Shown: positions 52,412-60,580 of the stretch, in pieces
Layout: each line of letters begins with the position of its first letter
How positions within the stretch are numbered: the first letter of the stretch is position 1
Assembly (NCBI GenBank): GCA_913774955.1
Contig: CAJYKV010000007.1
Coordinates: 521,693 to 585,692 of the forward strand
Source: an uncultured Acidovorax sp.
GTDB lineage: Bacteria > Pseudomonadota > Gammaproteobacteria > Burkholderiales > Burkholderiaceae_C
Direction: 5' to 3'
DNA: 64,000 bases
The notes under the pieces: generated by a model
The model's input: the letters and a program-made list of their open reading frames with translations, nothing else
What the model was told of the DNA's origin: nothing
The model's database searches: none
Translations under genes and position numbers: made by a program

Positions 52412-53554
52412 TCACAGGCGCAGCGCGCCCGCGTAGCCGGTGAGTTCCAGGTAGCCGCGGCCGACGCCCTGGCCCGCTGCGTCGCGCAGCGTGCTGAGGC
52501 CCTCCCAGTAGATCGCGCCGGTGGAGCCGCGGCTGTCCAGTTCCTGGTCGTCGACCAGGGCGTCGACCTCGAAGCGGCCGGCGGGCGTGTCGATGCGCCA
52601 GGCGACGGGGTAGCGGGTGCCGGTGCGCGGGCTGGTCCAGTGGCGCAGCGGCGTGAAGGCCATGGCCTCGGCCTGTTCGAAGACCTGCAGCGCGGCGGTC
52701 GCGCCCGCGCGGAACGAGCCGCTGGCCCAGAGCGTGCTGCCGTCCCGGCGGCGCAGCCGGAAGGCGGTGAGGGCGCCGCCGCCATCGAGGTTCATGCCGA
52801 TCCAGTCCCAGCCCACGGCCTCGGGGTGCATCAGGGCCTCGCTCCATTCGTGGTCGAGCCAGGCGCGGGCCGCAGGGCTGCCCGTGGCGCCCGCCGGCGC
52901 GATGGCGATGCGGCGGTCCGGCAGGGCGATGGTGCCGCGCACGTCCAGCTGGGGCTGGCTGTAGTAGTAGCTGGCCTGCTCCGGCCGCGGGCCCTTGCGC
53001 GACAGGCCCTGCCGGCCCTGCAGGATGGGAGGCTGGGTGGTGTCGAACTGCAGGTCGAGGCTGAACGGCCCGGCCGGGATGCGGGCCGTGTAGCGGCCGC
53101 CACCGGCACGCGGGGTGGCTTCCCGCACCAGGGACCAGGCCCCGATCCGGACGGCCGTGTCGGCTTCATCGGCCTGTGCGATGCCGAAGCCCGCGCGCGC
53201 GATGCGCTGGTCGTGCAGCAGCCGGCCGCTGCGCACGTCGGTGAGCGCGGCGTGCGCGAACAGCAGGTGGCGCGCCGCGAACGCCGAGCGCAGCGAGCGG
53301 GTTTCGTCGACGCGCGAGCGGAAGAAGGTGACCTGGAAACCCCAGTCCTGCCCGTCCGCATGCGCGTGGCCGGTGATGTACCACCACTCCGTGCGCAGCT
53401 CCGGATGGCTGCCGTGGTCGCGCGGAAAGACGAGGGTGCGTGCGGGCAGCGCCTGGGCGGCGTGCGGCCATGCGCCGACCGCTCCGGCGCCGAGCGCCGC
53501 GGCGAGCCAGGCGCGGCGCGTGGCGAACGAGGAGGGTGGCAGGCGCAGGGGCAT
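52412..53554 (-). CDS. AttH/CrtC-like lipocalin-type protein (carotenoid 1,2-hydratase family)
   Basis: A 380-residue exported protein. The N-terminus SFATRRAWLAAALGAGAVG has a twin-arginine pattern, so Tat export to the periplasm is likely. The mature part opens FPRDHGSHPELRTEWWYITGH, the hallmark of the AttH/hydroxyneurosporene-synthase family, with ARAWLDHEWSEALM and GWDWIGMNLDGGGALTAFRLR later. Relatives have a calycin double-barrel fold and are often found beside LolCDE-like ABC transporters, suggesting lipid handling; carotenoid hydration itself is unlikely here as no carotenoid genes are seen. The transporter is present 4.3 kb away on the same strand. Confidence 0.85.
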   Translation of the reverse strand: MPLRLPPSSFATRRAWLAAALGAGAVGAWPHAAQALPARTLVFPRDHGSHPELRTEWWYITGHAHADGQDWGFQVTFFRSRVDETRSLRSAFAARHLLFAHAALTDVRSGRLLHDQRIARAGFGIAQADEADTAVRIGAWSLVREATPRAGGGRYTARIPAGPFSLDLQFDTTQPPILQGRQGLSRKGPRPEQASYYYSQPQLDVRGTIALPDRRIAIAPAGATGSPAARAWLDHEWSEALMHPEAVGWDWIGMNLDGGGALTAFRLRRRDGSTLWASGSFRAGATAALQVFEQAEAMAFTPLRHWTSPRTGTRYPVAWRIDTPAGRFEVDALVDDQELDSRGSTGAIYWEGLSTLRDAAGQGVGRGYLELTGYAGALRL

Positions 53555-53588
53555 CGTGCGGACGGGTGGGTCTGGCGCGGCCTGCGCC

Positions 53589-54686
53589 TCAGGCGTCCAT
53601 CCGGGCCTGGATGCCGGCACGGGCCGCGTTGCAATCGCCGATGGTGCCGGCCACCCAGGCGTCGTCGAAGTAGGTGGGCAGGTAGCGCTCGCCCGAGTCG
53701 CAGAGCAGCGACAGCAGCGAGCCCCGTTCCCCGCGCTTGCGCATGCCGCTCGCCAGGCGCAGCATGGCCGCGAAATTCGTGCCGGTGGAAGGGCCCACGC
53801 GCCGCCCGAGCAGGGCGGAGAGCACCTGCATCGCGGCCACCGATTCGGCATCCGCCACTTCCTCCATCCGGTCCACGAGCGTGCGCACGAAGCTGGGCTC
53901 GACGCGCGGGCGGCCGATGCCCTCGATGCGCGATCCCCGTGCCGTGAGCGTGCCGTCCCCGGTGCGCCAGTAGGCGGCGAACACCGACCCGGCCGGGTCC
54001 GCGACGCACACCTGCGTGGCATGCCGCTGGAAGCGGATGTAGCGGCCGATGGTGGCGCTCGTGCCACCCGTTCCGGCACCCACCACGATCCAGCGCGGCA
54101 CGGGGTGGCGCTCGCGCTGCATCTGCAGGAACATGCTCTCGGCGATGTTGTTGTTGCCGCGCCAGTCGGTGGCCCGCTCGGCATACGTGAACTGGTCCAT
54201 GTAATGGCCGCCCGTGTCGGCGGCGATCGCGCGGGCCGCGTCGTACACCTCGGCCGCGTTGTCCACGAAATGGCAGCGGCCACCGTGGAATTCGATCAGC
54301 GCCACCTTTTCCGCGGAGGTACCGCGCGGCATGACGGCCACGAAGGGCAGGCCGAGCAGGCGCGCGAAGTACGCTTCGCTCACCGCGGTGGAGCCGCTGG
54401 AGGATTCGACGATGGTCGAGCCCTCGTGCAGCCAGCCGTTGCACAGCGCGTAGAGGAACAGCGATCGCGCGAGGCGGTGCTTGAGGCTGCCCGTGGGATG
54501 GGTGGATTCGTCCTTCAGGTAGAGGTCGATGCCGTGGGCCGCGTAGGCGGGCAGGTTGAGCGGGATGAGGTGCGTGTCGGCGCTGCGGTGGTAGTCGGCT
54601 TCGATCCGGGCGATGGCTTCGTGCAGCCAGCCGCCCGCGGGTGCAGGCGAGGGCGCGGCGGCGCCGCTGGGGGAGGGTGCGGTCAT
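53589..54686 (-). CDS. PLP-dependent cysteine synthase family protein (possible L-cysteine desulfhydrase)
   Basis: A 365-residue fold-type II PLP enzyme. The PLP lysine is K69 in [34 protein letters not shown] binds the substrate carboxylate and [17 protein letters not shown] the phosphate. The overall pattern fits the Cds1-like desulfhydrase branch, which releases H2S from cysteine, rather than CysK/CysM, but the reaction is inferred. An in-frame upstream ATG at 54722 would add 12 residues; MTAPSPSG was chosen. It lies 34 bases before the AttH-like gene, likely the same transcript. Confidence 0.85.
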
Positions 54687-54747
54687 GCGGGAAGTATCGC
54701 AGGCATGGGGCACCGCCGGCACCGTGCCTGCCCTGCCGCAGCCTGCG

Positions 54748-55824
54748 CTACAGCCCGAAGAAGGGCCGGTTCGACTCGATGCGCGCGGCTTCCGAGGCCG
54801 GGAAGCGCCGCTCGCGCAGCAGGCGCTGCAGGGCTTCGCGCCCCTGCTCGAAGGCCCGCACGTAGAACGCGCTCACGGTGAGCTCGTCGAGCGCGCGCCA
54901 TTCGTACACGGCCGCATCGACGAAGAGGATGTCCGCCGGCCGCGGTATGCGGGCGGCCTGCTGGGCATAGAGGTGCGCGAGCGCGAACTCCGAGCGAAGC
55001 CGGTGGTAGCGGGCCAGTTCGCACAGCGGCTCGGCGCGGGCCGGGCGCTGCGCATAGGCGGCGAGGTAGGTCTCGCGCACCTCCTGCGGCGAGTCCTGCA
55101 GGCGCTCCGTGAGCATCGCCACCTGGAGCGCCGCGTACCAGCATTCCTCGTCCCAGCCGCCCATCGCCGCGCGCCGGCGGTAGGCCTCGCGCGACTCCTG
55201 CAGGAGCCCCGCGTCGCGCAGGCTCTGGGCGAGGTAGAACGCGTAGCGCGTGTTGCCGGGCTCGTCCCGCAGGGCCGCTTCGAGCACGGCGATGTCGCGC
55301 AGGTAGGTCTGCGGATCGCGGGCGCGGGCGCCGTCCCGGGAAACGTCGATCAGCGGGCCCGGCAGCGACTGCCAGGCGCCGTGCGCGGGCGCGGACAGGT
55401 ATTCATGCAGCACGCCCTCCCAGCGCCACGGCACGCGCGCGGCCACCATGGCGTTGCGCTGGTACTCGCAATCGCCCATGCGGCAGGTGAACATGTAGCC
55501 GTCCGCATCCAGCCGGGGCCATGCGAAGCCGTCGGGCACGCGCAGCTGCTCGTCCGCATCGATGAAGAGCAGGTAGTCGGCCTCGGGCCGCGCGAGCTCC
55601 AGCGCCTCGTTGCGGTTGTGCGCGAAGTTCTTCCAGGGCCGCTCGTGCAGGCTGCCGGGCAGGTCCCGGAGGAAATCACGCACGATCTCCTGCGTGCCGT
55701 CCGTGGAGCCGGTGTCCACGATCACCCAGTGGTCTATGAACGGGCGCACGGAAGCGAGGCACCGGTTGATCACCGGTGCCTCGTTCTTCACGATCATGTT
55801 GAGGCAGATGCGGGGGCGGGTCAC
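54748..55824 (-). CDS. Family 2 glycosyltransferase with TPR-like C-terminal region
   Basis: A 358-residue cytoplasmic sugar transferase. The GT-A core begins [20 protein letters not shown] with [15 protein letters not shown] for nucleotide-sugar binding, and the metal-binding DxD is in [10 protein letters not shown] near residue 88. From about residue 170 on the protein is helical with TPR-like repeats ([23 protein letters not shown]), as in transferases that act on proteins or bind scaffolds. No membrane segment is seen. It lies 63 bases downstream of the collagen-like gene on the same strand, so that protein is a candidate acceptor; this is inferred, not shown. Confidence 0.87.
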
Positions 55825-55887
55825 TGCAGTCTCATCGTGGCGGCCGGGGAGTGCATCGAAATCGTCGGCAGCCCGGCATCGGCAGCT

Positions 55888-56943
55888 TTACTGGCAGTAG
55901 GCTTCAGCCGCCACGCTCGCCGCCGACGTGCAATTGAATTTGCAGGACCACTGGGTGGCCGCGGAGCGGCGCGTTGTTGCAACGGTATTCAGGAAATCCG
56001 ATGAGTTGCAGCCACCGGACACTACGTTGCCGGCACTACATGTGGCGGTCACGGTAATCTCCCCTGAATTGCCGCAACTCGCTGCAGGGGACACGGACGT
56101 CGTCAGCGTACCCACGCTCCCCGTGGCACCCGTCGCTCCGGTAGGGCCCGTCGCCCCGGTCGCGCCATTGGCGCCGGTAGGTCCGGTGAACCCCACGGGG
56201 CCCGTCGCTCCAGTGTTGCCCTGGATGCCCTGCGGGCCCTGCGGCCCGGTCGCGCCCGTGGCGCCGTTCGCTCCGGTAGCGCCCGTCACGCCCGCAGGCC
56301 CCGTGGCGCCCGTCGCGCCGTTGGCGCCGGTCGCGCCCGTCACACCGGCAGGCCCGGTGACGCCCGTGGCCCCTGCGGGGCCGGTCACGCCCGTCGCGCC
56401 GTTGGCACCCGTAGCACCCGTCACGCCGGCCGGGCCAGTGGCGCCCGTGACACCGGCGGGGCCGGTGACGCCCGTGGCGCCCGTGGCGCCGTTGGCTCCC
56501 GTGGCACCCGTCACGCCGGTGGGGCCGGTCACGCCGGTTGCGCCCGTCGGTCCCGTCGCACCCGTCGCGCCAGTGCCCGAGGCGCCGGTCGCACCCGTCG
56601 CGCCCGTGGCGCCGGCCGGCCCGGTCGCACCCGTGGCGCCCGTCGCACCGGTGGCGCCGTTGCCCAGTCCGGGCTGGCACTTGGTGAGTTGCCCCGTGGC
56701 GCTGTCGTAGCAGGTGAGGTTGCCGCTGGTGCCCGTGGAAGGCAGGCCCGGCACATAGACCTCGCCCGTGCCCTGCACGCGCAGCCGCTCCTGGCCGCCC
56801 GAGCCCTTGATGACGAAGCCGCCGCCCGCGGGCGGGGTGGCGGTGATGTCCGCCGCCAGCACGCCGGTGGCATGCAGGGCGATGACGGAGCACAGTGCCG
56901 TGGCGGCCCAGTGGCGGGCGATGCGGGGGGTGGTTTTGGACAT
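55888..56943 (-). CDS. Secreted collagen-like protein, Gly-X-Thr rich
   Basis: A 351-residue protein. Residues 1-30 are a Sec signal peptide (cleavage near VLA-AD). Residues 31-95 form a small N-terminal domain with [16 protein letters not shown] and a C79/C89 pair. Residues 96-277 are 60 Gly-X-Y triplets with one two-residue break at 123-124; Y is threonine in most triplets (GAT, GPT, GVT), with recurring GAN, GPA and one GPQGPQGIQ patch. Residues 278-351 are a C-terminal domain with six cysteines. Such proteins form triple helices without hydroxyproline and are often surface adhesins or fibres. The adjacent glycosyltransferase suggests Thr glycosylation, as known for BclA of Bacillus. Start chosen for the signal peptide. 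Confidence 0.9.
56113..56658 (-). repeat. Tandem DNA repeats encoding the collagen-like shaft
   Basis: The 546 bases repeat 9-base units encoding Gly-X-Thr, organised in larger blocks around [13 protein letters not shown]. The two-residue break near 56574-56579 may be a past deletion within the repeat. Such tracts can change length by slippage or recombination, so shaft length may differ between strains. Confidence 0.85.
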
Positions 56944-57011
56944 GGGTGATCCCTCTCTCTCAGAGTCTATGGTCGATATGTGGGTGCTGACCGCCGCGGG
57001 CGGGCAGGGAA

Positions 57012-57719
57012 TCAGCGCAGACGGGGGGTGCCGGGGGCCGCGAACTCGCGGCGCTTCCAGAACGCAAGCGCGGCCACCAGCAGCGACAGCAGCATCAGGC
57101 CGTATTCGCTGAGCGTGGGGATCGCCGTCAGTGCCGTGGGCGCGGCGCCGATCTGCACGGTGGGGGGCACACTGGCGAAGTTGCGCGTGACCGTGGCGTT
57201 GGGGCCCAGGTTGACCACGGCCGTGCCGCTGGAGGACACCAGCTGCACCGGCTGCGCGGCGGTTCCCTGGACGGTGAGCGAGCCCAGCACGGTGATGTTG
57301 GCGCCCTGGGGCAGCACGAACGTGCGGCCGGTGCTGCTCTGCAGCACCAGGTTCTGTACCACGATATTGCCGCTCAGTTGGGAGGTGTTGCCGGCATTGC
57401 AGCCGTCGCGCAGCACCAGCGTGTTGTTGCCCGTGTTGAGGGTGCCCGTGGCGATGACATCGCCTCCGACGGAGATGGTGCCGCCGGAGCCGGTGACATC
57501 CGACCCCGAGGTGAAGGTCGCGTTGGTATCGACCGAGAGCGTGCCGCCGCCGAGGTTGAGGGTCCCCTGCATCTCGAGCGAGGTGCAGGCGATGTCCATG
57601 GCGCCACCCGCCACGTCGAGCGAACTGCCGGGCGGCACCACCACCTGCGCAGCCACAGGCGCGCACAGCGAGACGAGCAGAGCGGCACCGGCCAGCCAAC
57701 GCAGGGAATGTCGACGCAT
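57012..57719 (-). CDS. IPTL-CTERM sorting-domain surface protein
   Basis: A 235-residue exported protein. The signal peptide ends near AAQ (residue 24-25). The middle is Gly/Thr/Asn/Ser-rich with repeated short beta strands ([34 protein letters not shown]), suggesting a beta-helix or beta-solenoid. The C-terminus is an IPTL-CTERM tripartite signal: IPTL at 200-203, hydrophobic helix about 207-221, basic cluster KRR at 222-224. IPTL proteins are thought to be processed and sorted to the surface by a dedicated protease in betaproteobacteria; that protease is not in this window. It is the first gene of a minus-strand series with the collagen-like and glycosyltransferase genes. Confidence 0.88.
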
Positions 57720-57775
57720 GAAAATCTCCTCCTGAGCCGGCAGTGCCTATGCGATGGCCTGTTCCAGCGAATGAT

Positions 57776-57866
57776 TTGCCAATGAACAAAAACTAACTGA
57801 CCGACTCAACTCACTGCGGGTCGTTGCTGCCAATAGTCTTTGGCAATTGGTCAGTGTTTCCGAAAC
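57776..57866. promoter_or_regulatory. AT-rich region with inverted repeats upstream of the IPTL-CTERM gene
   Basis: TGCCAA (57828-57833) and TTGGCA (57840-57845) form a perfect 6-bp hairpin; another TTGCCAA lies at 57776; CTGACC (57797) pairs with GGTCAG (57849); GTTTCCGAAAC (57856-57866) is a separate palindrome. No T run follows, so these look like operator sites or a structured leader. Base composition is clearly more AT-rich than the surroundings. No strong sigma-70 promoter is evident. Confidence 0.4.
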
Positions 57867-57904
57867 ATAAGACAAAATCCATTACAACCGCTAACTTTTT
57901 CTGC

Positions 57905-60532
57905 TCACCAGTCCTCTTTGACAGAGGATGCCGCCCCACGGGATGCGGCCGAGTGGCCCGAAAGCCACGCGGCTGCAGTACCCGTTGCCACCACGGCCAG
58001 CCCGAGCAGCGCGAGCCGGGCCGCAGGAAAGCGCAGGTCCATGGTCCAGTGGAAGCTCTGCGGGTTCACCACGTACACCAGCACGGCCGACAGCATCCAT
58101 CCGAGCGCGGTGCCGGCGACCGCGCCCACTGCCGTCCAGGCCGCGCCCTCGCCTGCCACCACGGCAAGAATCTGGGCGCGTGTCAGCCCCAGGTGCGCGA
58201 GCAGGCCGAATTCCTTGCGCCGCGCCAACACCTGGGCCGAGAAGCTCGCGGCGATGCCGAAGAGCCCGATGCCGATGGCCACGGCCTGCAGCCAGTAAGT
58301 CACCGCGAAGCTGCGGTCGAAGAGCGCCAGGGAACGCTCGCGGATGGCCTGGGCGGAACTGAATTCGAGCGCGGGAGGGTCTGCATGCCCTGTCGCCGTT
58401 TCCCGCAGCGCGGCCGAGATGGCTGTCTTGAGTGCTGCTTCGTCGGCACCGGGGGCGGGCCACACCGCCAGGTCATTGATGCGCGCATCCCCCGTGAGGC
58501 GGATGAAGTCCTCACGCTCCATCGCAACGGCGCCGAACTGGCGCACGTAGTCGCGCCAGACGCCCGCCACGAAGAACACCGGGGCCCCGCCGCCGGCGCG
58601 CGGCGCCTGCAGGCCGAAGGCATGGGACAGCGCCGGCCAGTACGCGCCCGGCCGAACGCCATACAGATCGACGATCGCCTCGCTCACGTACACGGCGATG
58701 CGGCCTTCGGGCACGGGCAGCGGCCCTTCGCGCAGCGGAAGCGTCTGTGCCGCGCCACGGCCGAACGGCCTCGCCAGCAGGGCGACCGGCGGCCGTGCAG
58801 GGTCGAGCAGCAGGCTGGCGACGCGCAGCGCTTCGGCACGGTCCACGCCCGGCAGCCCGGCCACCGTCCGGTCCCCGCCGGCGGGGAGCGCGGCACTGTC
58901 GTCGCCGGCGGTGGCGCCCGCGGCGCGCACGTAGAGCGGAGCGGGCAGCGCGGCGTCCAGCCACTGCATCACCGAGCCGCGGAAGCTCGCCACCATCACC
59001 GTGAGCGCGACGGACAGCGCCAGGCTCGCGACCACGCCACCCACGGCCACGGCGGCCATTCCGTGCATGCGGCGCGCGCGCTCTACGGCGAGCAGCGGCA
59101 GGGCGCTGCGGACCGCCCAGGGTGCAAGCAGGCCCAGTAGGCCGCGCACCAGCAGCGGGAGCAGGCCGATGCTGCCCACCAGCAGGAACGCGACGGAGGC
59201 ATAAGCGGCCAGCGGCAGGCCGGCCACCGGGGGGGCGAAGGCCAGCGCGGCCCCGGCGGCTACGGCCAGCGCCGGCGGTGCCATGCGGGCGTGGTTTCCG
59301 GCGGCCGCCCCCAGCCCCTTCAGTGCCTGGGCCGGCGCCAGCCGTTCGGCCGCACGCGCCGGCCACCAGCCGCCCGCAAGTGCGGCGGCGGTGCCGAGCA
59401 GTCCGTAGAGCAGTGCCCCGCCCGGGCTCCACTGCAGCGAGGGCCGCACGCCTTCGAAGTAGCCCCCTCCCAGATCGCCGCCCATCCACCGCAGGGCCAA
59501 CTGGGCCAGGGCCGTGCCCAGGGCGATGCCCGCGGCGCTGCCCGCCACGCCCAGCAGCGCCGATTCGGCCAGCACCAAGCCCCGCCGCATGCGCGGCGTG
59601 GCGCCGAGCACGCCCAGCAGCGCGAACTGCGGCGCGCGTTGCGCCACGCTGAGGGCGAGTACCGAGAACACCAGGTAGGCCCCGGTGAACAGCGCCACCA
59701 GCGCCAGCACCGTCAGGTTCACGCGGTAGGCGCGGGAGAGGTCGTCGGTGCGCTGGGCGGTATCCTGCGGCCGCACCACGGCGATGCCCGCTGCCGCCCG
59801 GGGCTCCAGTCCGGCCGCCTGCAGCAGCGCGGGCAGGGCGGCCTGGAAATCCTCGGCACGCTGGCCTGGGCGCAATTGCACGTCGATGCGGCTCAGCCGT
59901 CCGAGGCGGCCGAAGAAGTCCTGCGCTGCGCCGATGTCCATCACGGCCAGCGGGGGACCTCCGGCCGTCACCGTCCCCGCGACCCGCGCGGGCGCCGCAG
60001 TGGTCGCACCGTACAGCGTCACCGTGGTGCTGCGGTTTGGGCCCTGCGCCTCCCCGAGTCCCAGTGCCTGGAGCGCGGCAGGGTTCAGAAACACGGTGCC
60101 GGGCGACAGCATCGCCAGCCGGTCCGCGTCCGGAAAGGGCCGGGGTGCCAGTTCGGGCGCCATGGCGCCCAGCAGCAGGGCGTCCGCGCCCACCACACGC
60201 ACGGCCACAGAAGGCGCGGAGCCAGCCGTCTCTCCCCGGCTGGCCCGCGCGGCGATCTCCAGCACCGGGCCGGCGCGGGCCACCATCGGGTGCGTCGCCA
60301 CCCGCCCGTAGAGGCCTTCGGGCAAATCGCCCTGCACGGCGCGCATTTGCAGGTCCGGCTGGCCGCTCGCTGCGCGCACGGCCTGGCCGAACTCCGACAG
60401 GGCGGAAGCGTGGATCAGGTGCACGGCGAAGGCCAGGGCCACGCCGAGCATCACCGCGGCGGCGGCCACGGCGGCGCGCCAGGGGTGGCGGCGCAGTTCC
60501 TGCCAGGAGAAGGTGCGGAGCAAGGCGAGCAT
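57905..60532 (-). CDS. FtsX-like ABC transporter permease, LolCE/MacB superfamily (two FtsX domains)
   Basis: An 875-residue inner-membrane permease with a first helix near 20-40, a large periplasmic domain, three helices near 275-385, a further hydrophobic block at about 415-520, a second periplasmic domain and three helices near 755-860. This is the ten-helix double-FtsX arrangement found in transporters that pair with AttH-like proteins. FGLLAHLGLTRAQILAVV near the end is the typical FtsX coupling loop. The start MLALLRTFSWQELRRHP was chosen over an upstream ATG. The ATPase gene lies 48 bases upstream on the same strand. Substrate unknown, possibly lipid or lipoprotein. Confidence 0.87.
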   Translation of the reverse strand: MLALLRTFSWQELRRHPWRAAVAAAAVMLGVALAFAVHLIHASALSEFGQAVRAASGQPDLQMRAVQGDLPEGLYGRVATHPMVARAGPVLEIAARASRGETAGSAPSVAVRVVGADALLLGAMAPELAPRPFPDADRLAMLSPGTVFLNPAALQALGLGEAQGPNRSTTVTLYGATTAAPARVAGTVTAGGPPLAVMDIGAAQDFFGRLGRLSRIDVQLRPGQRAEDFQAALPALLQAAGLEPRAAAGIAVVRPQDTAQRTDDLSRAYRVNLTVLALVALFTGAYLVFSVLALSVAQRAPQFALLGVLGATPRMRRGLVLAESALLGVAGSAAGIALGTALAQLALRWMGGDLGGGYFEGVRPSLQWSPGGALLYGLLGTAAALAGGWWPARAAERLAPAQALKGLGAAAGNHARMAPPALAVAAGAALAFAPPVAGLPLAAYASVAFLLVGSIGLLPLLVRGLLGLLAPWAVRSALPLLAVERARRMHGMAAVAVGGVVASLALSVALTVMVASFRGSVMQWLDAALPAPLYVRAAGATAGDDSAALPAGGDRTVAGLPGVDRAEALRVASLLLDPARPPVALLARPFGRGAAQTLPLREGPLPVPEGRIAVYVSEAIVDLYGVRPGAYWPALSHAFGLQAPRAGGGAPVFFVAGVWRDYVRQFGAVAMEREDFIRLTGDARINDLAVWPAPGADEAALKTAISAALRETATGHADPPALEFSSAQAIRERSLALFDRSFAVTYWLQAVAIGIGLFGIAASFSAQVLARRKEFGLLAHLGLTRAQILAVVAGEGAAWTAVGAVAGTALGWMLSAVLVYVVNPQSFHWTMDLRFPAARLALLGLAVVATGTAAAWLSGHSAASRGAASSVKEDW

Positions 60533-60580
60533 GCGGCGATGGTGGAGCGGAGGGCCCGGGTGCATGGGAGCGGGGCCGGT

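Follow-up and report, generated by a model that had tools for sequence, protein, structure and literature searches.

A three-gene locus in an uncultured Acidovorax predicted to make a glycosylated collagen-like surface fibre with an IPTL-CTERM partner

Three neighbouring genes of an uncultured Acidovorax sp. probably (we put the probability near 0.72) specify a glycosylated collagen-like surface fibre, in which a SunS-like glycosyltransferase would place sugars on threonines in the Y position of Gly-X-Y triplets, with an IPTL-CTERM protein of the exosortase H (XrtH) type as partner. The window, i.e. the whole stretch of DNA that was analysed, is 64,000 nucleotides long; the genes of the locus and its flanks are given below.

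57905..60565, minus strand: FtsX-type ABC permease, upstream flank of the trio
57012..57719, minus strand: IPTL-CTERM protein, 235 aa; PF18203 and TIGR04174 matches over cut-off
55888..56943, minus strand: collagen-like protein, 351 aa; PF01391 match over cut-off
54748..55824, minus strand: SunS/ThuS-like GT2 glycosyltransferase (GT) with TPR tail, 358 aa; GTG start
53589..54686, minus strand: PLP-dependent enzyme near cysteine desulfhydrase Cds1 (562 bits, cut-off 600)

An earlier note, made from the sequence alone, had described the trio as three genes of one strand, IPTL-CTERM, collagen-like and GT in that order, 68 and 63 bases apart, and this is what we found. Its protein assignments were also upheld: the IPTL-CTERM, collagen and GT2 matches all exceed curated cut-offs, the DxD motif is present as DAD, and the TPR-like tail of the GT, for which TPR family matches stay below cut-off, is visible as helices in the predicted structure. 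The earlier note had overlooked both flanking genes. The PLP-enzyme gene is on the same strand and starts 61 bases past the GT gene if the ATG at 54686 is its start; in relatives it follows the GT gene at four loci (L031, L038, L121 and L122) and was not found after it in L126 or L141. It is a flank kept in some relatives, possibly co-transcribed, and stands outside the proposed mechanism. No terminator-like or promoter-like sites were found in 53500..58500, which has little meaning because shuffled sequence averages only 1.7 and 0.2 such sites.

The GT has a single match in the whole 4.78 Mb genome to which the window belongs. Its catalytic domain matches PF00535 (GT2) with 50.9 bits (cut-off 23.3), and the DAD motif at residues 89-91 is invariant in all 44 aligned homologues. 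The predicted structure (pLDDT 95.5) has the GT2 plus TPR two-domain fold of the SunS type; the closest solved folds are the peptide glycosyltransferases SunS and ThuS (PDB 7msn, 7msp and 7msk), with a match that takes in the GT domain together with some or most of the TPR region, at 16-18% identity. The score against the SunS family model TIGR04195 is 41.1 bits over residues 3-92 only and does not reach the cut-off of 350; thus the GT is not filed as a member of that family, and the resemblance is one of fold. A signal peptide is absent by inspection, so the enzyme is likely to be cytosolic.

The collagen-like protein (PF01391, 94.5 bits, cut-off 27.2) consists of a signal peptide (by inspection), an N-terminal domain, 61 Gly-X-Y triplets and a C-terminal domain containing cysteine. 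Counted over runs of five or more triplets, Thr occupies Y in 42 of the 61. Among 13 orthologues the ratio of nonsynonymous to synonymous differences was 2.11 for X positions, 0.40 for Y and 0 for G, with repeats aligned automatically and pairs of orthologues not independent of each other; the low value at Y and the high value at X indicate retention of Thr in Y and drift at X. In the available part of a review, Thr is given as the commonest Y residue over all bacteria (31.6%), and bacterial collagens are described as mostly devoid of hydroxyproline yet favouring Thr in Y (PMC8968730).

We compared the Thr content of Y in collagens with and without a GT, using collagens among the matches listed rather than all collagens of the 399 family genomes, and applying a filter for genuine collagens that was chosen after the unfiltered table had been seen and that removed 61 of 113 ORFs. 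Among the matches listed, filtered collagens within 3 kb of a GT had Thr-in-Y of at least 0.38 in 18 of 18 cases (median 0.58). The same level was seen in 5 of the 7 located elsewhere in GT-bearing genomes (median 0.50; the other two at 0.17) and in 8 of the 27 from GT-lacking genomes (median 0.26). Thr in X did not rise in parallel, its median being 0.03-0.04 in every group of the filtered collagens listed. Genus means of Thr-in-Y differed with a p-value of 2.7e-5 (4.5e-6 to 0.0016 in five other treatments), again among the matches listed.

The N-terminal domain of the collagen-like protein is common to 39 of the collagen-like proteins found, and 26 of these are near a GT, with Thr-in-Y from 0.38 to 0.90. 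Members of this family in GT-lacking genomes had values of 0.22, 0.04, 0.11, 0.18, 0.32 and 0.46, the last one at L108. The difference between GT-near and GT-lacking members has a p-value of 6.7e-4, obtained with genera g1 and g86 standing on both sides and without seven members whose genomes carry a GT at a different place (0.17, 0.17, 0.48, 0.50, 0.51, 0.54 and 0.55). A tree-corrected test of independent pairs gave one or two supported pairs, too few to reach significance. We infer, with good support from these comparisons, that the GT attaches sugars to Thr in Y of the shaft. The earlier idea that the transferase would modify the shaft is supported by comparison, as the presence of the GT tracks Thr in Y of the neighbouring collagen in the expected way.

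Several other Thr-rich sequences were seen in passing. In G035 (L051 5206-11860) two very similar tandem collagen genes are Thr-rich exceptions (0.59 and 0.56); after them come no more than the first ∼35 codons of a GT gene and then a gene resembling, by eye, the one after the intact GT in L034. Lipoprotein-like proteins of ∼130 aa with a short Gly-X-Thr (GXT) tract and Thr of 0.5-0.84 occur in genomes without the GT (L055, L062, L073, L084 and similar); these are a separate kind of small bacterial collagen. Very large proteins read as filamentous-haemagglutinin-like, also from genomes without the GT (L045 and L063), carry 290 and 574 Gly-X-Y triplets, and Thr takes 0.45 and 0.55 of the Y positions.

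Relatives of the GT were collected with a profile built from seven GTs, which matched in 24 of 399 family genomes (E≤1e-25); this profile replaced a search with a single GT, in which 98 of 150 genomes gave mostly GT2-domain-only matches. The GT is present in 13 of 17 genomes of the window's own genus, and a close orthologue of the IPTL-CTERM protein is present in the same 13, while G088 has a distant one. The earlier note would have taken its reading as refuted if the three genes were not neighbours in relatives, but neighbours they are: all 13 genomes of the genus that have the GT show the same order, as do five further genera of the family, where the three genes are co-directional (L031, L037, L038, L127 and L130), and one gammaproteobacterium, Parahaliea aestuarii (L153). 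In the latter the trio again runs in one direction, and its first protein shares 39% identity with the IPTL-CTERM protein; no NCBIfam model matched it at E 0.01 and no tail signal was recognised. In L038 (6940-8065, genome G003) the trio is otherwise conserved, and the GT lies in three reading frames, through decay of the gene or through errors in the assembly. In G088, and in this own-genus genome only, the FtsX and PLP genes are adjacent and the trio is absent, an empty site that fits a trio gained or lost as one block. Genomes G190, G407 and G409 had no FtsX gene beside the PLP gene within the stretch covered and are uninformative in this respect.

Orientation differs in several relatives: GT and collagen genes are convergent in L032, L123-L125 and L144 and divergent in L142 and L143. 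The IPTL-collagen pair is conserved with or without the GT, the latter in L039 and L040. A GXT tract was found within 2 kb of the GT at 18 of 25 family loci (7 had none, and two contig-end fragments were left out), with 2 tracts in 176 kb of far flank. Among 80 named loci from several phyla, including Cupriavidus, Paraburkholderia, Methylococcus, Streptomyces and Chlamydiae records, 31 had such a tract and 49 had none, with 1 in 478 kb of far flank; for 10 plasmid or phage loci, taken from 22 matches, the corresponding counts were 4 and 6, with 1 in 32 kb. Around generic GT2 genes, a GXT tract was near 0 of 22 loci under a stricter triplet-variety filter and with 1.5 kb taken on each side; this filter, which drops perfect GXT repeats, gave 27 of the 80 named loci. 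When the GXT-neighbour label is placed on a FastTree tree of 113 GTs, its distribution takes a minimum of 24 changes, a bare count. The wider unit is the GT with a GXT shaft, and the IPTL-CTERM protein is a lineage-specific addition. A general scan for Thr-rich ORFs (17 of 80 loci near, 3 ORFs far) was set aside as less specific.

Some neighbours of GT homologues are of other kinds. In the 309 kb Tunturiibacter phage Tunturi_5 (L266 5004-6107) the GT is 44% identical, and a tail fibre gene lies 3.7 kb away; the part of this gene that was covered has 12 Gly-X-Y triplets with Thr in Y of 0.42. A Citrobacter conjugative plasmid (L267 1915-6191) carries an autotransporter gene followed by a GT homologue (34% identity) beside an arsenic operon, and the same GT match is found on six enterobacterial plasmids. 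In L274 the homologue is beside a YadA-type protein. In L036 and L132 (genus g55) it lies between two genes that we take to encode BapA-like adhesins, and one such neighbour in L036 has GTSTNTGT repeats.

The IPTL-CTERM protein has a signal peptide (by inspection), a repetitive body rich in Gly, Thr and Val, and an IPTL-type tail (PF18203, 46.7 bits; TIGR04174, 37.6 bits, cut-off 20.5), as far as its layout can be read from the sequence. The genome of the window encodes exosortase H (G000:C8:227507-227977; 260.4 bits, cut-off 86). XrtH was present in 14 of the 17 genomes of the genus; the remaining three (G190, G407 and G409) have no XrtH, no IPTL match and no GT. Among 150 family genomes, XrtH over cut-off was found in 13 of 14 with a match to the IPTL-CTERM protein versus 5 of 136 without, a link that partly restates the known pairing of tail and exosortase because several of the 14 matches cover little beyond the tail.

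Taken as a pathway, the cytosolic SunS-like GT would add a sugar, for which the SgtA parallel suggests GlcNAc as a guess, to the Y-position Thr of Gly-X-Thr chains that are still unfolded. Sec would carry these chains out of the cytosol, and as trimers they would form a decorated stalk on the cell surface. The IPTL-CTERM protein would likewise be exported and its tail probably cut by exosortase H, as suggested by the tail together with the co-occurrence of the two; it may serve as the surface partner of the fibre, perhaps its base, since its pairing with the collagen gene is conserved. One could guess at adhesion, biofilm formation or helix stabilisation as the purpose. In work on Riftia collagen, a sugar on Thr in Y is said to be able to stabilise the triple helix.

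Could the GT serve other surface proteins (the IPTL-CTERM protein, autotransporters or large adhesins), the collagen-like protein being one client or none? The autotransporter, YadA-type and BapA-like neighbours in L267, L274, L036 and L132 would fit this reading, as would the 49 of 80 named loci that have no GXT tract within 2 kb. We regard it as unlikely, since within the family most loci (18 of 25) have a GXT shaft next to the GT, and Thr in Y goes with the presence of the GT. A quite improbable reading, to our judgement, is that Thr in Y is selected for hydration of the triple helix alone and that the GT acts on a glycan or lipid of the surface, within a general surface island. Many GT2 enzymes do make glycans or lipids, and Thr-rich bacterial collagens without this GT exist; the review cited above, in its available part, also puts the stress on hydration (PMC8968730). 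Against this stand the closest folds, which are those of peptide glycosyltransferases with part of the TPR region included in the match, and the two flanking genes examined, which encode an FtsX permease and a PLP enzyme and are not genes of glycan synthesis. Moreover, a collagen-like protein of the same genus that occurs without the GT has 1 Thr in 27 triplets.

That the three genes came together by chance and each have a role of their own has very little to recommend it. The GT is indeed reoriented or missing in some relatives, and the IPTL-collagen pair stands without it at two loci; still, an order kept in every GT-bearing genome of the genus, in five more genera and in a gammaproteobacterium, as well as the empty site in G088, argues against coincidence. 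The glycosylated collagen-like fibre is our preferred reading.

More tentatively, and as a possibility that we would not call probable, SunS-like GTs that accompany Gly-X-Thr stalks in several phyla, on plasmids and close to the tail fibre gene of a phage could form a family that makes Thr-glycosylated collagens, with glyco-Thr in Y taking the place of the missing hydroxyproline. Burkholderiales might have added an exosortase-H-processed repetitive protein to serve as a dedicated base at the surface; the result would be a transferable system for glyco-collagen fibres. Should a dedicated GT account for Thr in Y across a good share of bacterial collagens, this preference would become a directly testable matter of glycosylation. 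A sequence rule (a SunS-like GT beside a GXT tract) would then predict glycosylated collagens across bacteria, IPTL-CTERM/exosortase H proteins would gain a concrete partner and an assay, and the genes would offer a compact kit for producing glycosylated recombinant collagen.

Several known systems resemble parts of the locus. SunS and ThuS share the fold of the GT, which matches TIGR04195 at 41 bits; their substrates are small bacteriocin peptides, unlike the proposed collagen. Sorting by IPTL-CTERM and exosortase H (TIGR04174 and TIGR04177) is matched by the tail over cut-off and by XrtH in the genome, but the definition of this family includes neither a collagen-like partner nor a GT. In the literature searched, IPTL-CTERM is mentioned once, in one paper; no paper was found that combines two of the terms exosortase, XrtH and IPTL, and no title on collagen glycosylation in Gram-negative bacteria was among the literature matches listed. 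Legionella Lcl, as described in the available text, is likewise a trimeric collagen-like adhesin on the surface of a Gram-negative bacterium, shaped like a lollipop, but its repeat, GPQGLPGPKGD(K/R)GEA, is not Thr-rich (PMC11162425). The word stem 'glycosyl' is absent from the main text of that paper, and our collagen-like protein scores 92.9 bits against the Lcl equivalog NF046116, for which the cut-off of 500 is not reached. BclA of Bacillus anthracis is also a glycosylated collagen-like surface protein, but one of the spore (PMC8968730, available part).

The nearest parallel is the SgtA-BclA3 pair of C. difficile. According to the available part of the source, the gene for SgtA directly precedes bclA3, and the enzyme was shown in vitro to attach beta-O-GlcNAc to Thr of peptides from the BclA3 collagen repeats; it also accepts serine versions of these peptides (PMC7157674). 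The earlier note had suggested an undescribed system; that description now fits the IPTL/Gram-negative version only, as a collagen-modifying GT beside a collagen gene is already known from C. difficile (PMC7157674). Both systems have a GT gene adjoining a Gly-X-Thr collagen-like gene and a surface location, and we liken SgtA to our GT by gene arrangement and by the activity proposed for ours. The C. difficile pair belongs to a Gram-positive spore surface and has sgtA upstream of bclA3, whereas here the GT follows the collagen gene; an IPTL/XrtH partner is not mentioned in the available part of PMC7157674. An arrangement resembling a known spore-surface system would occur in a different kind of cell, a plant-associated bacterium, and the locus is most likely a Gram-negative variant of the SgtA-BclA3 kind to which an IPTL-CTERM/exosortase H partner has been added.
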